Counted from the first letter of the stretch, positions 11,008 through 19,230 are shown. The stretch: 64,000 nucleotides of DNA from an uncultured Flavobacteriales bacterium (GCA_905479105.1 CAJQLE010000001.1:361628-425627); one strand, 5' to 3'. Program-made: numbers and translations. Notes: a model not told the origin generated them from the letters alone.

Positions 11008-11106
11008 TTGCAGGGACAAAAACCGCCAATAGTCGGTCTAGCTCGAACTTGTTTCCGCCTGCTGGCGGATATGAGCCCAACGAGCTACCTACTGCTCTAC
11101 CCCGCG
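11008..11106 (-). pseudogene. Degenerate tRNA-fMet copy
   Basis: On the minus strand the first 37 bases match the intact tRNA-fMet at 19260-19332 except for two changes. They cover the acceptor 5' side, D-arm and anticodon loop through CTCATA. The 3' side of the anticodon stem is then replaced by a palindrome (CCGCC-AGCA-GGCGG), and the T loop (GTTCGAG) is broken by about 20 extra bases. The 3' acceptor strand (CCCTGCA) is still recognisable. The length and broken stems argue against function. Confidence 0.75.
11070..11087. repeat. Left copy of the tRNA-fMet core repeat (candidate attL)
   Basis: TATGAGCCCAACGAGCTA, from the anticodon loop to the D-arm of tRNA-fMet, is identical at 18970-18987 and inside the intact tRNA at 19296-19313. 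The copies at 11070 and 18970 are direct repeats bracketing the A+T-rich island. Confidence 0.65.
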
Positions 11107-11406
11107 ATTTCGAATGCAAATTTTCGATAGTTTTTAACCTCTGCAAGGTTTATTTTAATATAATTTAAAAAAAGGAAGATGTTTTTAGTTAAAACACAAA
11201 ACCTGCATTTAATGGTAATTCATAGGATTTTGTAGCACAAAAATCTAACACAGACTCGATATCTATTTTTGTGAATTTCAATCAAATCTATTAAAATTGA
11301 AACTGGTTATGATTTATCCAAGCCTAAAAGAAAATATATTACACCTAAATTAGAAAAAATAAAGCAGATTAAGGATTTTTGTGAATTTGATTCTGATGAA
11401 GTATGG

Positions 11407-13026
11407 GTGTGCAAAGAAAATTACCTTCTAGTCATCCCTCAAGGCAGATTAGAAGGAGATCGAGGGCTCGAATTAGCCCCTAACTTTGATAACAGGTACT
11501 CAATGGTTAATTACGGAAAGTATCACTTAGAAGCAAGTGTAAAAGTTAAAAGCTTTGCCATTTCTGATTTATTTTTCCAAATGGATCCTTGCATGGATGA
11601 ACTTATAAGCGAACCAGAAGGTGGCCCATATTACAATTTCTCAAAAATATTTCACTACGAAGAAGGGGAATTAGAACTAGAAATTAAAAACGACAGTGTT
11701 AAGGATACAGAGTTTAAAAAAGTTGGCTCTATGATTTATAAAAATATGAAAAACATGAATTTTTTTGAATCTGTAGCTCACCATAACTTGGAGCGATTTC
11801 ATAGCGAGTGTATTAGTTGGGCATTTAATTCATCAGAAAAGATGCTACATGACTTCATAAAAAAAGTAGCAAAGCCAGATTACATTCTTGACATTACGGA
11901 CGCAGAAGTGCATTGTGAGAGGCACAATACGGACATTTTAGTATCTTATAAGATGGGTGATTCACATCACTTCATTCATATAGAGAATAAAATAAAAGCC
12001 AACGAACATTTTATAGCAGTAAATCCCGAAAAAGTAGAAAAGAAATATAGTGGTATAACTAAAAACACCAAGTTGTCGCAAACTCAGTTTTATTTAATCA
12101 GAAATAAAGCTGAAATAGAAAAAGAGTTTAATGCAGGAGAAAAGGTAAAATGGCAGTATCTTTTCTTGGTGCCTGCCGTCAGCGATGAAAGGCAAAAAAA
12201 TATTTGGGATGATACCAGAGAAGAAAAGAATCTCTGGAAGACCATATCCTATTGGCATATTGTCGACAATATGCCAGTGTCTACGGGTAATAAGATATTT
12301 GATGACTATCGAGACTATCTTAAAGGTCAATTTTTAGGTGAGAATCAAAGGACTCCCTACCAAGTAATAATTAGAGACGAGAGCATATCTACGGACCAGA
12401 TAAATAAAAGTTTAGGGCGTAATACGATTTTAAAAAAGTACGGACTACGCTTGCATTTTGAAGCTGTAGCAGATGAATTAAGAAATTTCGTTAGAAATGA
12501 ATATCCAAACGAACCATTTGAGATAAGATTTTTGACAGACACTGGGAATAATGGAGGCTTTTTATTAGAGGTGTTTACTATTGCTAGTTTACAAAATCCT
12601 AACCCTAACGTTTTTACTAGTAAAAAACCAATTGATTTTAGAATTGGATTTCAATTTGAGCAGAACAAAATCGATAAGGGTAAGTTCAAATTCTATTTCG
12701 CTGACGTGGTTTACAAGACAGGTTTAATTAAAAAAACTGGTAAAGAAGAGTATCATAATGCGGTGGGAGGAACAAACGACTCCAAAGGAATACTTAGAAC
12801 TATTTTCGAAGAAGAGAAAATAGGTAAATGTAGAGATAAAAATAATAAGCTAAAATTTAATAAAAGTACCTCTAAGTCATTTTGCAGCTATTCGTATAAT
12901 TTTTCATTTAGAAACAAGACAGAACTAGAGAGCATATTCAAAACAGAAATAAAAATATTAGTGAATTCTTTAAAACTACATAATTTTAAAGATTTGCTTA
13001 AGGATAAACTAAAAAACAATAATTAA
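11407..13026 (+). CDS. PD-(D/E)XK-type nuclease-like protein with an N-terminal module shared with the 175-residue island protein
   Basis: Residues about 35-90 (NYGKYHLEASVKVKSFAISD) align with residues 105-155 of the gene at 13888. Residues about 125-200 look like a PD-(D/E)XK nuclease core: Glu134, Asp176 in HNTDILVSY, and Glu193-x-Lys195 in HIENKIKA, like the PDDEXK_4 group. The last 200 residues are unfamiliar. The start is uncertain: GTG at 11407 is used here, but the frame stays open back to 11275 without an ATG, so the 5' end may be truncated. It is the first gene of the island row, nine bases before the next. DNA cleavage is inferred. Confidence 0.7.
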   Translation: MCKENYLLVIPQGRLEGDRGLELAPNFDNRYSMVNYGKYHLEASVKVKSFAISDLFFQMDPCMDELISEPEGGPYYNFSKIFHYEEGELELEIKNDSVKDTEFKKVGSMIYKNMKNMNFFESVAHHNLERFHSECISWAFNSSEKMLHDFIKKVAKPDYILDITDAEVHCERHNTDILVSYKMGDSHHFIHIENKIKANEHFIAVNPEKVEKKYSGITKNTKLSQTQFYLIRNKAEIEKEFNAGEKVKWQYLFLVPAVSDERQKNIWDDTREEKNLWKTISYWHIVDNMPVSTGNKIFDDYRDYLKGQFLGENQRTPYQVIIRDESISTDQINKSLGRNTILKKYGLRLHFEAVADELRNFVRNEYPNEPFEIRFLTDTGNNGGFLLEVFTIASLQNPNPNVFTSKKPIDFRIGFQFEQNKIDKGKFKFYFADVVYKTGLIKKTGKEEYHNAVGGTNDSKGILRTIFEEEKIGKCRDKNNKLKFNKSTSKSFCSYSYNFSFRNKTELESIFKTEIKILVNSLKLHNFKDLLKDKLKNNN

Positions 13027-13035
13027 TAAAATAAT

Positions 13036-13887
13036 ATGGCAAAAGATTTTACAAAATACAAGTTTGAAGACTGGAAAAAAGGTATCGCAAAATCAAGAAT
13101 GGTTTTAAAAGTTGTGGAGCACTATGCAAGTTCAATGGATATGAATTATGAGGAATTAAAAGAGCAATGGTGGGATGATATTCAAGGAGGTAAAGGCATT
13201 ATAAGAATGGTTTCAGAAATTGACTCAAAAAATGAACGAAATTATTACATAAACGCTCCGATTACATTAAAAGATGGGACCAAAATAGCCGTTTGTAATC
13301 AATGGGGAAAAGAAAATTTTTCAAATTTTATTTTACATGCAGGGTTGTTGAATTATAAAATTATTGCAGATGTTGCAGAAGAAAATGAAGTGAGTGACGA
13401 GGAACTGACCCAAGAAAAAGTTTCGACAGTTGAAGAAAAGTCAGCAATTCAAGAAACAGTAGAGGGTTCGATAAATTGGAAGTTGCCACATGCCCTCGCA
13501 TTTGTTATAAGACATACCATGTTAGCAGATGGAGAGGTAATTGAAGGTGAAATGAATTGGATGCATATCGCTTTTGATGAGTATGACGAACAAGGAATTG
13601 CAGTTCGTGATGTATGGGATGACGTAGATAGCCAATCTCAAATTTTCTGGAAAATGGGAAAACATAACGCCCTTTTGGTGAACTCTATTAATTTTTTAGC
13701 GGATCATCTTGACAACTCTCAAAAATCAAGACTTATTCAAATTCTAATACAAATCTGTGCTCAAGATAATTTAATCGCTAAGAATGAGTATGTAACGCTA
13801 TTGTTGGTTGCTAATAATATTTATGACGGTGCAGCTTATCCTATAAGACAGGTATTAGATAATGCAGGTTTAACAATAGAAGAATAA
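13036..13887 (+). CDS. Winged-helix-like plus TerB-like domain protein
   Basis: Residues about 1-110 form a module shared with the gene at 14446: MA(K/R)D(F/Y)TKY, then DD/DE-(I/V)QG, and a closing NQWG...NFI...Y.I. Its size and pattern suggest a small winged-helix-like domain. An acidic linker follows. Residues about 148-270 resemble the all-helical TerB family, with the typical LADGEVIEGEMNWM acidic metal-site segment. TerB-like domains occur in tellurite/stress and phage-response gene sets. The next gene starts at the base after the stop, so translation is probably coupled. The function is unknown. Confidence 0.65.
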   Translation: MAKDFTKYKFEDWKKGIAKSRMVLKVVEHYASSMDMNYEELKEQWWDDIQGGKGIIRMVSEIDSKNERNYYINAPITLKDGTKIAVCNQWGKENFSNFILHAGLLNYKIIADVAEENEVSDEELTQEKVSTVEEKSAIQETVEGSINWKLPHALAFVIRHTMLADGEVIEGEMNWMHIAFDEYDEQGIAVRDVWDDVDSQSQIFWKMGKHNALLVNSINFLADHLDNSQKSRLIQILIQICAQDNLIAKNEYVTLLLVANNIYDGAAYPIRQVLDNAGLTIEE

Positions 13888-14415
13888 ATGAAGAAATTAG
13901 AAATAGAAGTATTAGGCTCAATGTATCAAGATTGGGATAATGAAGAATTTAGTTGGGATGTGGATAATATCATTAAAGTAACGTTGGATAACGAACTAGT
14001 TATCAATAAACGCTTTGGAGAATTTAATGTGTACGAAGACGAAACCGATTTGGATAATGGCATCTATAAACCAGCTATTTTGCCAAACTATTATTTAATA
14101 GATTATGTGGGTTCTTGTTCTGTTAAAACAGAGTCTGGAGATACTATAACCACACCTTATGCCTATTGTAATTTAAAAAGCGAAGGTGATGTAACTATAA
14201 AGTATGGTAAATGGCACCTCAAGGCAGCATTAGAAGTTGAAAATGAATTTAAATTGAGCGATTTAGTTTTTGTTCGTTTAGATAATTTGATTGAAGCTAT
14301 TAATTCTGGCGAACCTGGATTTTCTTCATTAATATTATTGCCAGGCAAAGGAGTTATTAATTTTTCTGAAGTTGCTTCCAACGTAAAAGACACTTATGAA
14401 TGTACAATTGAATAA
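13888..14415 (+). CDS. Island protein of unknown function (175 residues)
   Basis: No known family is recognised. The protein is acidic and probably beta-rich, with no signal peptide or membrane segment. Residues 105-155 (YGKWHLKAALEVENEFKLSD) align with the N-terminal module of the nuclease-like protein at 11407. The two may therefore share a binding partner, or one may be a free-standing form of the other's domain. It starts immediately after the TerB-like gene (stop and start adjacent). The DNA is strongly A+T-rich like the rest of the row. Confidence 0.65.
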   Translation: MKKLEIEVLGSMYQDWDNEEFSWDVDNIIKVTLDNELVINKRFGEFNVYEDETDLDNGIYKPAILPNYYLIDYVGSCSVKTESGDTITTPYAYCNLKSEGDVTIKYGKWHLKAALEVENEFKLSDLVFVRLDNLIEAINSGEPGFSSLILLPGKGVINFSEVASNVKDTYECTIE

Positions 14416-14445
14416 ATTTTAAAACAAAAAAATAGACAAAATATT

Positions 14446-15447
14446 ATGGCAAGAGATTATACAAAATACACCGTAGAAGGTTTAGGAGATAACCTTAACA
14501 AAAGGCAATTAGTCTTTGAAATTGTTAAAGATTGGGCAAGTAAAAACAATCCATCAGTTGATGAGATTAAAAAAGCTTTTCCTGATGAAGTGCAAGGCAG
14601 TAAAAGTGGCCTCATCGTAAAAGAAAATGAGGTTAAAAGTCAAAAAAACTTTAACATGAAAGAGCCTCTTACCATTAAAGGAAAGGTTAGCGTGGTAGTA
14701 AGTAACCAATGGGGAAACAATTTACCCAACTTCATTAAATGTGCAGAAGAATTAGGATACAGCATATCAAAAACTAACGCTAATAAACCAGCAAGCAGTA
14801 ATAAAGACCTTATTGATTTAAAAGATTTTGAAGTTTGGAAACTAGCAGAGTTCTTTGGCACAAAAGAGGGGAATCAAGAAGATTTAGACTCTATTGATGA
14901 AGAAATAGAGGCCTTATTAGATAAAAGTCCTAAATATTATGTTGTCGGTAAGCTGTTTGAAAAATATGACTTTGAATATCATAGAGATGATGTTGATGAA
15001 TATTTCTCACTAGGTGAGGATGAGAGTTTTGATGAAGATGATTTACTTGATATGTTAAGAGATGAGACATTGCTCTCAAGAATAATAAAAAAGGAAAATC
15101 TTACTGATGTAAAACTGAGTCCTGATAATACAGATTTTGTATTATTATTCTCTGGCTATTTCATAAAAGCTTTAGAGTTACTTGTATATCGTGATGATAA
15201 TGAAATGATTGCTGAATTTATTGTCAATCAATCTGTTCAAACAATTGAAGATGAATACAATGTTGATACTCTAATGGGCGATTGGTTGGGTGATATCACA
15301 GCAGAATTAATTGAAAATATTTATGGTTATGATATTAAAGATTATGATGGAGAATGTGAAATAGAGGCCTATTATTTTGGGCAAAACCATTCAATGGGTT
15401 ACGATTTTTATAGCTACGCACAAGATATTATTGATTCTTTACTATAA
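14446..15447 (+). CDS. Winged-helix-like N-domain plus long acidic C-terminal region
   Basis: The first 107 or so of 333 residues are a paralogue of the N-terminal module at 13036 (MARDYTKY start, NQWGNNLPNFI end). The rest is unlike the TerB-like part of its paralogue. It is highly acidic (DEYFSLGEDESFDEDDLLDMLRDE) and probably helical, with no family recognised. Such acidic regions can act as DNA mimics or protein-docking tails, but nothing here proves either. The gene lies 30 bases after the 175-residue gene. Confidence 0.65.
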   Translation: MARDYTKYTVEGLGDNLNKRQLVFEIVKDWASKNNPSVDEIKKAFPDEVQGSKSGLIVKENEVKSQKNFNMKEPLTIKGKVSVVVSNQWGNNLPNFIKCAEELGYSISKTNANKPASSNKDLIDLKDFEVWKLAEFFGTKEGNQEDLDSIDEEIEALLDKSPKYYVVGKLFEKYDFEYHRDDVDEYFSLGEDESFDEDDLLDMLRDETLLSRIIKKENLTDVKLSPDNTDFVLLFSGYFIKALELLVYRDDNEMIAEFIVNQSVQTIEDEYNVDTLMGDWLGDITAELIENIYGYDIKDYDGECEIEAYYFGQNHSMGYDFYSYAQDIIDSLL

Positions 15448-15512
15448 AGAACTTTCAATAGTTTCTTATTCAATATAGGAAGCAATTAAACTGATATTTG
15501 TCCTTAGAATTA

Positions 15513-15956
15513 ATGAAACTAGTATACATAGATCTAGATGGTGTTGTGGCAGATTTTGTCTCTGCCATGAACGCTCACCCCTTAAGAAACGAACTGCCTT
15601 TTAATAAAGATCCGGATACAATTCCGGGTCTTTTTAGGAGTTTGAAGCCCATAGAATCTGCGATTAGTTCTGTAGAAAAATTACTTCATTCAGAGAAATA
15701 TGAAGTTTACTTCCTTAGCACAGCTCCTTGGAATAATCCATCTGCTTGGACAGATAAGCGGTTGTGGTTGGCAGAGCAGTTTGGCGATATAATAAATAGA
15801 AGGCTTATCTTAACCCATCGTAAAGATTTGGTGAAAGGTGATATTTTAATTGACGATAGACCAAACAATGGGACAAAAGATTTTGAAGGAGAATTGATAA
15901 AATTCGGTTCTGATGAATATCCCAACTGGGATTCGGTTATAAATTATTTACTATGA
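15513..15956 (+). CDS. HAD-family 5'(3')-deoxyribonucleotidase-like phosphatase
   Basis: I chose the ATG at 15513 over a TTG at 15498 because it puts the HAD motif in the usual place. The 147-residue protein begins MKLVYIDLDGVVADF (DxDGV nucleophile motif) and ends with ILIDDRPNNG, the acidic DD motif. This matches the small NT5C-type deoxyribonucleotidases found in bacteria and phages, which remove phosphate from nucleoside monophosphates. The gene overlaps the next by four bases (ATGA), indicating translational coupling. In an island, a role in nucleotide balance or as passenger cargo is possible. Confidence 0.8.
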   Translation: MKLVYIDLDGVVADFVSAMNAHPLRNELPFNKDPDTIPGLFRSLKPIESAISSVEKLLHSEKYEVYFLSTAPWNNPSAWTDKRLWLAEQFGDIINRRLILTHRKDLVKGDILIDDRPNNGTKDFEGELIKFGSDEYPNWDSVINYLL

Positions 15957-17920
15957 AGGCACTCTCAAAATCGCGATTTAAACAAGGGTTGGAATGTCCT
16001 AACAAAATCTATTTTTCAAATAATCCCGATGTTTATCACAACATAAAAAATGAAGACCCATTTTTAGAAGCACTTGCAAGTGGTGGTTTTCAGATAGAAG
16101 AATATGCTCGCCTGCACTATCCGCACGGAATTTTAGTAGACGCACCGTATGAAGATAATGACTATCAAGATTTAGCTGATCAAACTAATGAACTCCTCAA
16201 GCAAGAAAACGTAGTGATATATGAAGCTGCATTTTATGTGAATGATCTATTTATTAGAACCGATGTTCTCATAAAAAAAGGTAATAAGATTGAACTTATA
16301 GAAGTTAAGGCAAAATCAATTGACCCAAATAAGGATCATAATTTTGTTGGGAAAAAAGGCGGATTGGTTGGTGATTGGAAACCTTATTTATTTGATCTGG
16401 CTTTTCAAAGTTATGTAACTCAACTTTGTTTGCCTAACTATAAAATTACTCCTTATTTATGTTTGGTGAATAAAACGAAAGTAGCCACTGTAGAGGGCTT
16501 AAATCAACAATTCAGAGTTAAACAAGATTCTGATAAACGAACTGGCGTAGATGTTTTAGTAGATGATGTTAGGCAGCTAGGAGATAATCTGCTGCATGTA
16601 GAAGATTTGACGGAGGTGGTGGATAAAATACATGACAATGAATTTAAATATTATGATAATCTAAATTTTAATGAAGCCTTAAAATTATTATCAGAGGTAA
16701 GAATTAAGGATTATTATCCCAATTGGCCAGCGCAGTTTGGAGCTTGTAAAAAATGTGAATTTAAGAAGGATGAAAGTGAACAAGGTCAATTAAAGCAATC
16801 TGGTTTTGAGCATTGTTTTAAAACCCAATACCAATGGACGGATGCAGATTTTGCTGCACCTAATATTTTTAATGTTTGGGATTTAAAAGACCCTAAACTA
16901 ATGGCAGAAGGCTTATTATTCAAATCTCAACTAAGTCCTGAGCATATAAAATATAAAGAGGAAGATGAAAGACTCCATCGCACCCAACGCCAGTGGCTTC
17001 AGATAGAAAAAGAACGAGACAATGATTTTACAGAGTTCATCAATAAAGATGGCCTAAGGGCTGAGATGGACACCTGGATATATCCACTTCATTTTATAGA
17101 TTTCGAAACATCAACAGTGCCACTTCCCTTTCATACTGGGCGTACGCCATATGAGCAAATAGCCTTTCAGTTTTCACATCATATCTATCATGAAGATGGA
17201 CGCATTGATCACGCCAATGAATACATAAATACCAAACCTGGTGAATTTCCTAATTTCAAATTCATTTCACAATTAAAAGAAGCTTTGTCACAGGATGAAG
17301 GTACTATTTTCAAGTATTCTACCCATGAAAACACAATACTTAATGTGATTAGGGATCAATTAAAAGCGAGTAATTATCCCAACAAGGAGTCGCTTGTTTC
17401 ATTCATAGAGTCAATTAGTCATCCAAAAAATAATCATACAGATTCTTGGCCAATACCCAAAAGAGATATGGTTGACCTCTGTGATATAGTTAAAAAGTAT
17501 TACTACAACCCACATACCTTTGGATCTAATTCTATTAAAGCAGTACTTCCTGCAATATTAAAGTCAAGCAAGATGGTTAAAGAAAAGTATGGTCAAGCTA
17601 TTGGTGAAATAGTAGTTTCAAGTCAAAATTTTGATTCAAATCATATTTGGTTAAAGCAAGAAGGTAGCAATATCATCAGTCCTTATAAAATGTTGCCTAA
17701 TGTTTTTGAAAACTTTAGCTATGATGAAATTGAATCTAAAGTCTCTGATATAAAAAACATTGATAATGGCGGTGCTGCATTAACTGCTTATGGAAAGATT
17801 CAATACAGCGATATGCCTGCTGATGAGCGCAAAGAAATTGCGGAAGCACTCAAACGCTATTGTGAATTAGATACGTTGGCTATGGTAATGATTTATGAGC
17901 ACTTGAAATCCATTATTTAA
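15953..17920 (+). CDS. DUF2779-type dual nuclease (Cas4-like PD-(D/E)XK plus DEDD exonuclease-like)
   Basis: In this 655-residue protein the N-terminal half is RecB/Cas4-like: LSKSRFKQGLECP with Cys15, Asp104, and Glu117-x-Lys119 in LIEVKAKS. Cys265, Cys268 and Cys288 could join Cys15 in an Fe-S cluster. The C-terminal half (about 375-650) has RNase H/DnaQ-like exonuclease motifs: HFIDFET at about 380, FKYSTHENTIL, and RYCELDTLAMV near the end. This arrangement is that of the DUF2779 family of predicted nucleases, whose role is not established. It is translationally coupled to both neighbours (ATGA and TAATG overlaps). Confidence 0.8.
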   Translation: MKALSKSRFKQGLECPNKIYFSNNPDVYHNIKNEDPFLEALASGGFQIEEYARLHYPHGILVDAPYEDNDYQDLADQTNELLKQENVVIYEAAFYVNDLFIRTDVLIKKGNKIELIEVKAKSIDPNKDHNFVGKKGGLVGDWKPYLFDLAFQSYVTQLCLPNYKITPYLCLVNKTKVATVEGLNQQFRVKQDSDKRTGVDVLVDDVRQLGDNLLHVEDLTEVVDKIHDNEFKYYDNLNFNEALKLLSEVRIKDYYPNWPAQFGACKKCEFKKDESEQGQLKQSGFEHCFKTQYQWTDADFAAPNIFNVWDLKDPKLMAEGLLFKSQLSPEHIKYKEEDERLHRTQRQWLQIEKERDNDFTEFINKDGLRAEMDTWIYPLHFIDFETSTVPLPFHTGRTPYEQIAFQFSHHIYHEDGRIDHANEYINTKPGEFPNFKFISQLKEALSQDEGTIFKYSTHENTILNVIRDQLKASNYPNKESLVSFIESISHPKNNHTDSWPIPKRDMVDLCDIVKKYYYNPHTFGSNSIKAVLPAILKSSKMVKEKYGQAIGEIVVSSQNFDSNHIWLKQEGSNIISPYKMLPNVFENFSYDEIESKVSDIKNIDNGGAALTAYGKIQYSDMPADERKEIAEALKRYCELDTLAMVMIYEHLKSII

Positions 17921-18276
17921 TGGACTTTTCTAAAAACACTCCAGATTTTATAACAGCACTAATGCAAACCTGGCTTTTACAATATAAGCAAGATCAACAA
18001 AACCCTCTTACTACTATCGGTTTGTTTCGTTGGGAATTTAGACCCAACAAACGCAAGCCCGAAAAACCGAGAAGAATTCCAAAAATAGACAAGTGTATAG
18101 ATTTACAAGATTTAAGTTTTAAACATAAGGTGTATTTTTTAGAAATTGATACCAAAACACTACATGTCTATGAATCCTCAGGCATTGCCTTAGGAGGATT
18201 AAATATTGCTCATGAATATACCTTACACGAAGACGAATTTGCTCAAACAAAAGTTCTGTTTAAAATGATTAGATAA
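17920..18276 (+). CDS. Small island protein of unknown function
   Basis: This 118-residue soluble protein has a basic middle (RPNKRKPEKPRRIPKIDK) and no recognised family. Its ATG overlaps the stop of the DUF2779 gene by one base, so it is the last member of the coupled trio. Its stop codon directly abuts the left end of the IS6-family remnant at 18277, so the IS may have trimmed the original C-terminus. A role as partner of the nuclease is only a guess from position. Confidence 0.6.
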   Translation: MDFSKNTPDFITALMQTWLLQYKQDQQNPLTTIGLFRWEFRPNKRKPEKPRRIPKIDKCIDLQDLSFKHKVYFLEIDTKTLHVYESSGIALGGLNIAHEYTLHEDEFAQTKVLFKMIR

Positions 18277-18796
18277 GGTTCTGTCGCATCTAAATTATCA
18301 AAACTTAAATCTTATTCCCCAAATCAATTATATTACAAGCTGTTTACTTCAAATTAAGATTCAGTTTAAGCTACCGAGATGTAGAAGAACTTCTATCTAT
18401 AAGAGGCGTAAAAGTGGATCATGCTACTATTCAGCGCTGGGTATTCAAATTCACACCCCTTGTTGAACAACAATTCAGAAAAAGGAAGAAAATAGTTGGA
18501 AAAAGATGGTGACTAGATGAAACTTATGTTAAAGTAAAAGGGCAATGCAAGTACTTGAATAATATGGTAGAGCAAGATCATCGTTTTATCAAGTGGCGTA
18601 TAATGCTAGGTTTAGGATTTAAAGAATTTGAATCTGCAAAGAGAACCATATCAGGCATAGAAGTAGTTAGAATGATAAAGAAAAATCAACTGTTGAATCC
18701 TGAAAATTCAACCTATAAATCATTTATATCATTAGCTTCGTAAATCAAGATTCAAATCAAACTTTTATAATTATATTTGGTAGATGCGCCAAAACC
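18277..18796 (+). mobile_element. Decayed IS6-family insertion sequence
   Basis: The left end begins GGTTCTGTCGCATCTA and the right end, read inward, GGTTTTGGCGCATCTA. These are imperfect inverted repeats typical of IS6-family ends. The enclosed transposase is broken and internally deleted, leaving 520 bp. It inserted immediately after the stop codon at 18276. Confidence 0.8.
18336..18743 (+). pseudogene. IS6-family transposase remnant (stop codon and internal deletion)
   Basis: One frame reads YFKLRFSLSYRDVEELL, then VDHATIQRWV, a TGA stop after GKRW, LDETYVKVKG with the first catalytic Asp, and directly NNMVEQDHRFIKWR with the catalytic Glu. In family members roughly 80-90 residues, including the second catalytic Asp, lie between KYL and NNMVEQDHR, so that part is deleted. 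The fragment cannot transpose. Confidence 0.85.
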
Positions 18797-18967
18797 TCCA
18801 CTTCTACTAACCGTAGATGAAGAGAAACTAATGAAGATTAAAATATTTGGGTAGTTCGTATTTTATCTAACACAAGAGTGTAGCACGTATAACACAAAAA
18901 TGATTATACTTTTGTAACTACTTGAAAATGAAATGATAAAAGTATATAAAATTAGGTAGTAAGGATA

Positions 18968-18987
18968 GTTATGAGCCCAACGAGCTA
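18968..18987. repeat. Right copy of the tRNA-fMet core repeat (candidate attR)
   Basis: GTTATGAGCCCAACGAGCTA is identical to bases 19294-19313 of the intact tRNA-fMet and shares 18 bases with 11070-11087. It lies outside any tRNA, against the 3' end of the GIY-YIG gene, whose stop codon falls partly inside it. From 18797 to 18967 I see nothing coding. Confidence 0.7.
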
Positions 18988-19230
18988 ACCTCGAATGATT
19001 GACCAAATAAACGCCCTGCCTTTGGCTGATTTCAATGACTTTTCTCGTTTCATGGCCTCACGCTTTTCTGAGTGTTCCTCAGTGTAAACAACTTTCCAAG
19101 GGCGATACTTTACGGTGTATCCTTTGGTTGCCAGCTCATTATGAGATAGCATTCTTGCTTCAAGATCACTCGTGTATCCGATGTAAATCTTGTCGCTTGA
19201 CTCTGAGTATAATGCGTAAACTGTAAACAT
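18985..19230 (-). CDS. GIY-YIG nuclease-family protein
   Basis: The open frame extends to 19365, but that part is translated tRNA, so the real start is the ATG at 19230 (81 residues). The motif is VYALYSESSDKIYIGYTSDLEARMLSH (the Tyr pair of GIY-YIG, then the helix with Arg), with the usual YTEEHSEKREAMKREKSLKSAKGRAFIW end. These tiny UvrC/Slx1-like proteins are common in Bacteroidota and often lie just downstream of tRNA genes. A truncated sister copy is at 10931. Nuclease activity is inferred from the motif. Confidence 0.9.
   Translation of the reverse strand: MFTVYALYSESSDKIYIGYTSDLEARMLSHNELATKGYTVKYRPWKVVYTEEHSEKREAMKREKSLKSAKGRAFIWSIIRG

Follow-up and report, generated by a model that had tools for sequence, protein, structure and literature searches.

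A tRNA-linked row of nuclease, nucleotidase and module-bearing genes in a Flavobacteriales genome: a candidate mobile conflict island

Results

Gene content of the locus

Seven open reading frames (o1–o7), all on the + strand, fill positions 11407–18276 of the window, that is, of the whole 64,000-nt stretch of DNA that was analysed, just as the initial annotation had laid them out. It had also described most of the genes as adjacent or overlapping, and we observed that o2 and o3 abut, that o5 and o6 overlap by 4 nt and o6 and o7 by 1 nt, and that the other intergenic gaps measure 9, 30 and 65 nt. The GC content of the row is 0.32–0.34 (33%) compared with ~0.40 in its surroundings and in the genome. 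Homologues of o2 (in the L127 comparison), o3, o5, o6 and o7 have dN/dS values of 0.07–0.28, and this purifying selection indicates that the row is more than a run of chance reading frames. The features are as follows (labels beginning with L denote loci used for comparison).

11067–11265, − strand: element end B, carrying a tRNA-Met 5′ half (88% identical to L129 15639–15441; 54-nt repeat)
11304–11741, + strand: tail of a decayed module gene, forming the front of o1 (DNA identity to the end of an L130 gene; stop bypassed)
11407–13026, + strand: o1, composite ORF (ORF call)
11746–13026, + strand: PD-(D/E)XK nuclease gene, predicted, forming the rest of o1 (PDDEXK_4; L119 homologue)
13036–13887, + strand: o2, N-terminal module and TerB-like tail (module common to o2 and o4; L129 copy)
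13888–14415, + strand: o3, probably a tail domain copied as a stand-alone protein (L129 homologue; weak profile match to an L130 tail)
14446–15447, + strand: o4, N-terminal module and helical tail (full-length homologues in L118 and L119; model pLDDT 86)
15513–15956, + strand: o5, NT5C, predicted 5′(3′)-deoxyribonucleotidase (Pfam NT5C; PDB deoxyribonucleotidases; homologues in module loci)
15953–17920, + strand: o6, DUF2779, Cas4/RecB-like PD-(D/E)XK and RNase H-like exonuclease, predicted (Pfam; conserved motifs)
17920–18276, + strand: o7, small conserved protein, no fold assigned (homologues directly 3′ of DUF2779 in L120, L127 and L129)
18340–18742, + strand: decayed IS240/IS6-type transposase (DDE_Tnp_IS240, E = 3.9e-15; internal stop)
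18797–18987, − strand: element end A with a 20-nt tRNA repeat at 18968–18987 (82% identical to L129 7068–6879)
19259–19332, − strand: tRNA-Met (CAT), integration target (ARAGORN)

The first reading frame had been annotated as a PD-(D/E)XK-like nuclease. The domain is there, with PDDEXK_4 scoring above the Pfam gathering cut-off (28.8 vs. 22.3 bits), but the frame is a composite and not one gene. From 11304 to 11742, the DNA matches the terminal part of an L130 gene for a 464-aa module protein at 91.8% identity, and the stop of that gene corresponds to 11739–11741; in o1, this stop is bypassed via a one-base length difference upstream. A single native protein was therefore rejected for o1, in which the tail of an L130-type module gene has been run by a one-base shift into the PD-(D/E)XK gene. 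The latter probably starts near 11746, and an L119 homologue, 29% identical to this part of o1, starts at the same point. The front of the first module gene, together with the divergent gene (F3) found ahead of it elsewhere, has been lost from the window copy.

A shared module with exchangeable tails

The claim that several proteins of the row have modules in common was borne out. The first ~120 residues of o2 and o4 are similar (E = 2e-18 over 125 aa), as are the front of o1 and o3 (E = 8e-6 over 41 aa). The module that recurs across the island proteins comprises ~110 N-terminal residues and has no counterpart in Pfam or the PDB. Its predicted structure is a confident alpha + beta model (pLDDT 83, pTM 0.77). 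Neither the module nor o4 gave a Foldseek match at E ≤ 0.001 in the PDB (nor, for o4, in BFVD), the best VIA-align Z scores of o4 and the module (4.9 and 4.3) were at chance level, and no fold was assigned. At the family level, o4 and o7 matched no Pfam entry and o3 gave Pfam matches at noise level only. The TerB-like character proposed for o2 survives as a weak similarity in its tail that falls below the Pfam gathering cut-off (15.6 vs. 24.4 bits).

The tails attached to the module have been shuffled. Pairwise alignment against shuffles divided the tails of 21 module proteins into eight groups. The modules of o2 and of a protein from L130 are 96% identical, and those of a pair of L119 proteins 90% identical, yet in neither case is the tail shared; near-identical modules carrying unrelated tails are a sign of such shuffling. 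Furthermore, the row is 95.9% identical in DNA to L129, a locus in a Polaribacter metagenome-assembled genome (MAG), from 13021 onwards, and this identity ends at 14586, inside the module of o4, a pattern that tail swapping by crossover within the module would produce. Over L129 8592–9443, o2 has 100% amino acid and 95.9% DNA identity, and o3 has 94% amino acid identity to its L129 homologue. As o3 also gave a weak profile match to an L130 tail (E = 9e-5, probability 59%), it may represent one tail type in stand-alone form. A full-length homologue of o4 (47%) was found in a genome of the same genus (G582), in an island that adjoins tRNA-Gly and tRNA-Leu and that also carries NT5C and DUF2779 genes.

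Elsewhere, the module forms the C-terminal part of predicted nucleases (L051, L052 and L070–L072). Its fusion to nucleases in one context and to a variety of tails in another leads us to read it as a putative recognition or adaptor part. Separately, L090:2670–3410 encodes a free-standing protein that, by eye, resembles the tail of the L122 and L124 module proteins; this locus has NT5C and DUF2779 genes, and no module was found there.

Nucleotidase, DUF2779 nuclease and o7

The annotation of o5 as a deoxynucleotidase-like HAD phosphatase is upheld by its NT5C score (68.1 bits vs. a Pfam gathering cut-off of 24.8) and by its N-terminus, YIDLDGVVADF, which contains the DxDGVxAD motif I. The nearest PDB entries to o5 are 5′(3′)-deoxyribonucleotidases, and it is predicted to be one. 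NT5C enzymes act on monophosphates, not on dNTPs. Similarly, o6 had been called a dual-nuclease DUF2779 protein, and its score (83.4 bits vs. a Pfam cut-off of 23.3) and its catalytic motifs agree with this: both the PD-(D/E)XK and the DEDD motifs, along with four cysteines, are kept in eight homologues. DUF2779 has been placed among presumed 3′–5′ exonucleases (PMC3985635). Of the papers on DUF2779 that were consulted, one predicts this activity and another lists a transposon mutant, neither of which amounts to a defence role, and our literature search found no paper linking a deoxyribonucleotidase to defence islands.

Both families also occur outside the row. Genes of the o5 type and DUF2779 genes are found alone in unrelated settings, DUF2779 travels alone on plasmids, and DUF2779 proteins were common in searches at the phylum and class levels, in mixed surroundings with neighbours unlike those of the row. 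In L094, NT5C is directly followed by DUF2779, and in L090 and L091 the two lie close together, in all three cases without the module. An o7 relative after DUF2779 in L091 was not detected by BLASTP, and hhalign gave a weak match (74%, E = 2.7e-5).

Related loci and conserved gene order

A profile search of 84,980 species genomes with the module proteins returned 13 other loci, 12 of which are labelled as Bacteroidota and one as Rhodobacteraceae. Since only module proteins served as the query, the neighbouring genes count as independent evidence. NT5C was present in 9 of the 13 loci (twice as a fragment), DUF2779 in 7, a divergent HTH-like gene in 6 and o7 in 3; some of the contigs end early. 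For comparison, NT5C is present in 11 of 42 genomes of the order. In single-protein searches at the phylum and class levels, all hits to the module lay in predicted nuclease genes, and o1 had a single distant relative.

Could the row instead be two unrelated operons, 11407–15447 and 15513–18276, as the initial annotation had allowed? The gene order disfavours this. In L127, the full series is present, from the divergent gene through the module gene(s), NT5C, a PD-(D/E)XK-like gene and DUF2779 to o7; L129 has the same order with DUF2779 broken, and the series in L120 lacks only the PD-(D/E)XK-like gene. The module protein, NT5C, DUF2779 and o7 come one after another in all three, which answers the question of conservation in other genomes, and in L127 and L129 a one-base overlap joins the module gene to NT5C. 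On the other hand, L123 has the module without NT5C and DUF2779, and nucleases are missing from both L123 and L124. The occurrence of o5–o6 without the module (L090, L091 and L094) and of the module without o5–o6 (L123) points to a loose core plus cargo. The family core appears to consist of the divergent HTH-like gene, which the window copy has lost, between one and four module proteins, NT5C and DUF2779, with o7 in the closest copies, while extra PD-(D/E)XK nucleases and further cargo seem to come and go between copies.

Several observations concern individual loci. The L127 contig (CALSPC010000003.1) is titled Rhodobacteraceae, yet its element is almost the same as the Polaribacter element of L129; this may reflect a recent transfer or a misbinned contig. 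A KAP-family NTPase similar to PifA/QatA is cargo of one module island (L122:12487–14295), and another has as immediate neighbours an AbiEii-type gene, which is paired with a DUF6577 partner, and an HNH nuclease (L125:4053–7008). A cargo family with an invariant GLNPSLT motif (F6; L118:11229–11912, L126:7–639, L128:9186–9989 and L090:3599–4369) is perhaps a uracil-DNA glycosylase-like enzyme; the motif prompted this idea, and Pfam and PDB profiles gave no confirmation of it.

Insertion site and mobility

The row is an insertion at the tRNA-Met gene, as the initial annotation had proposed in placing it in an island at a tRNA. Partial copies of tRNA-Met lie at both ends (54 nt, 87%, at 11067–11120; 20 nt, exact, at 18968–18987). 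The row is absent from this site in eight genus relatives, which marks it as inserted; a tRNA-Met is near pheT in all eight, and a carbonic-anhydrase-like gene is kept beyond it in seven. The Polaribacter element of L129 also lies at a tRNA-Met, with a 24-nt tRNA repeat, and the sequence matching end B (L129 15639–15441) is its tRNA-side end. In L118, L120 and L130, a tRNA gene (Leu, Arg and Leu, respectively) is found 71–332 nt from the divergent gene.

Besides the row, no ORF of integrase length is present within 11067–18987; an integrase fragment lies beside L129. Comparison with L129 shows that the gene block of this copy lies in inverted orientation between its element ends, and the IS240-type remnant may mark this rearrangement. 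Between the element and tRNA-Met is a GIY-YIG endonuclease gene (18985–19227, − strand); one is also near the same tRNA in a genus relative (L111) and was not found in the other site regions. A phage origin was rejected: PHROGs matched only o5 well among the genes of the row, IMG/VR scans, which reach close relatives only, turned up nothing related to o3, o6, o7 or the module, and o6 had no relatives in phage records.

Discussion

We consider the row to belong to a family of conflict (defence-type) islands, mobile and linked to tRNA genes, in Flavobacteriales and other Bacteroidota; their modular proteins would sense or recruit, and their nucleases and nucleotidase would destroy invading DNA and its nucleotides. 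To this reading we would give an even chance. That the target is phages or plasmids we infer from the nucleases, the mobility, the diversity of tails, the similarity to PDC-S57, the L122 KAP NTPase and the AbiE/HNH neighbour of L125. In such an island, the module would be the recognition or adaptor part, and the exchangeable tails would be sensors or effectors. Upon sensing of invading DNA, the nucleases o1 and o6 would cut and degrade it, and o5 would take the phosphate off the released deoxynucleotides, so that the invader could not reuse them. We infer both this sequence of events and the coupling of nuclease to nucleotidase. A more specific version, put forward tentatively, is that marine Bacteroidota have here a multi-gene anti-phage system not described before. 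The module, of a fold not assigned, would be its shared plug, on which tails serving as sensors or effectors could be exchanged, and the nuclease–nucleotidase pair would destroy phage DNA and its building blocks. The solitary DUF2779 and NT5C genes, the nuclease-free L123 and L124 and the lack of a named PADLOC system count against defence, and a deoxynucleotidase with an exonuclease could equally serve in salvage or repair.

This last point belongs to the main rival explanation, one that we regard as unlikely, namely, that tRNA-linked islands are hot spots gathering functionally independent genes, so that o5–o6–o7 would serve nucleotide salvage or DNA repair, the module proteins would have another role, and the common order would reflect the descent of one mobile element and not one pathway. 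The variable cargo, the plasmid-borne DUF2779 genes and the separate occurrence of o5–o6 and of the module all speak for it. However, L120, L127 and L129 keep the order and tight spacing despite dS values near saturation for o5 and o6, they do so at different tRNA sites, and NT5C is at 9 of 13 module loci compared with 11 of 42 genomes of the order.

Another possibility, which seems to us quite improbable, is that the island serves the mobile element itself by protecting, maintaining or excluding elements (anti-plasmid activity, superinfection exclusion or control of tRNA-site occupancy) and is not directed at phages. It draws on the tRNA repeats and conserved element ends that bound the row and on the divergent HTH-like gene that adjoins the tRNA in several copies; against it, the window copy has no intact integrase, relaxase or replication gene, and the cargo is rich in nucleases and not transfer-related. 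Whatever the family does, the window copy could also be a decaying remnant without function, given the lost divergent gene, the truncated and frame-shifted first module gene, the IS remnant and the inversion of the gene block. We think this very improbable. Against it, each of the frames o2–o7 is open, their motifs are conserved and dN/dS is low, although the selection may have acted in other lineages. The window copy may nonetheless not be fully functional, considering the loss of the divergent gene and the frame-shifted first gene. The conflict-island reading, if it extends to defence, would add a family from a poorly sampled group of marine bacteria, give a pathway to the widespread nuclease family DUF2779 and make the exchange of tails on a fixed module traceable between near-identical elements. 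It also offers the idea that DNA degradation is coupled to dephosphorylation of the released nucleotides.

Comparison with known systems

The initial annotation recognised no named system with this gene set, and our searches of PADLOC, Pfam and NCBIfam likewise returned no named defence system. PADLOC gave partial matches only, to PDC-S26 (o1) and PDC-S57 (o2), both unnamed candidates. The module that o2 and other island proteins carry at the N-terminus matches the C-terminal ~105 positions of PDC-S57; however, PDC-S57 is a single nuclease protein, whereas the row is multi-gene and carries the module at the N-terminus of non-nuclease tails.

Effector-associated domains (EADs) are small, non-enzymatic domains that recur on neighbouring proteins (PMC7159879). 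The EAD conflict systems described there resemble the row in having a small domain on neighbouring proteins with varied partners, but their vWA-MoxR, GTPase and iSTAND core components were not recognised in the proteins scanned, which were part of the neighbours. The comparison bears on how the module might work and does not imply membership. The tRNA-integrated islands, such as tycheposons, share with the element the partial tRNA repeats at its ends, the turnover of cargo and marine hosts, although the window copy is without an intact integrase. Finally, nucleotide-depletion defences (dCTP deaminase and dGTPase) likewise place a nucleotide-degrading enzyme in defence, as this candidate row does, whereas the NT5C protein here pairs with a nuclease and is predicted to act on monophosphates.
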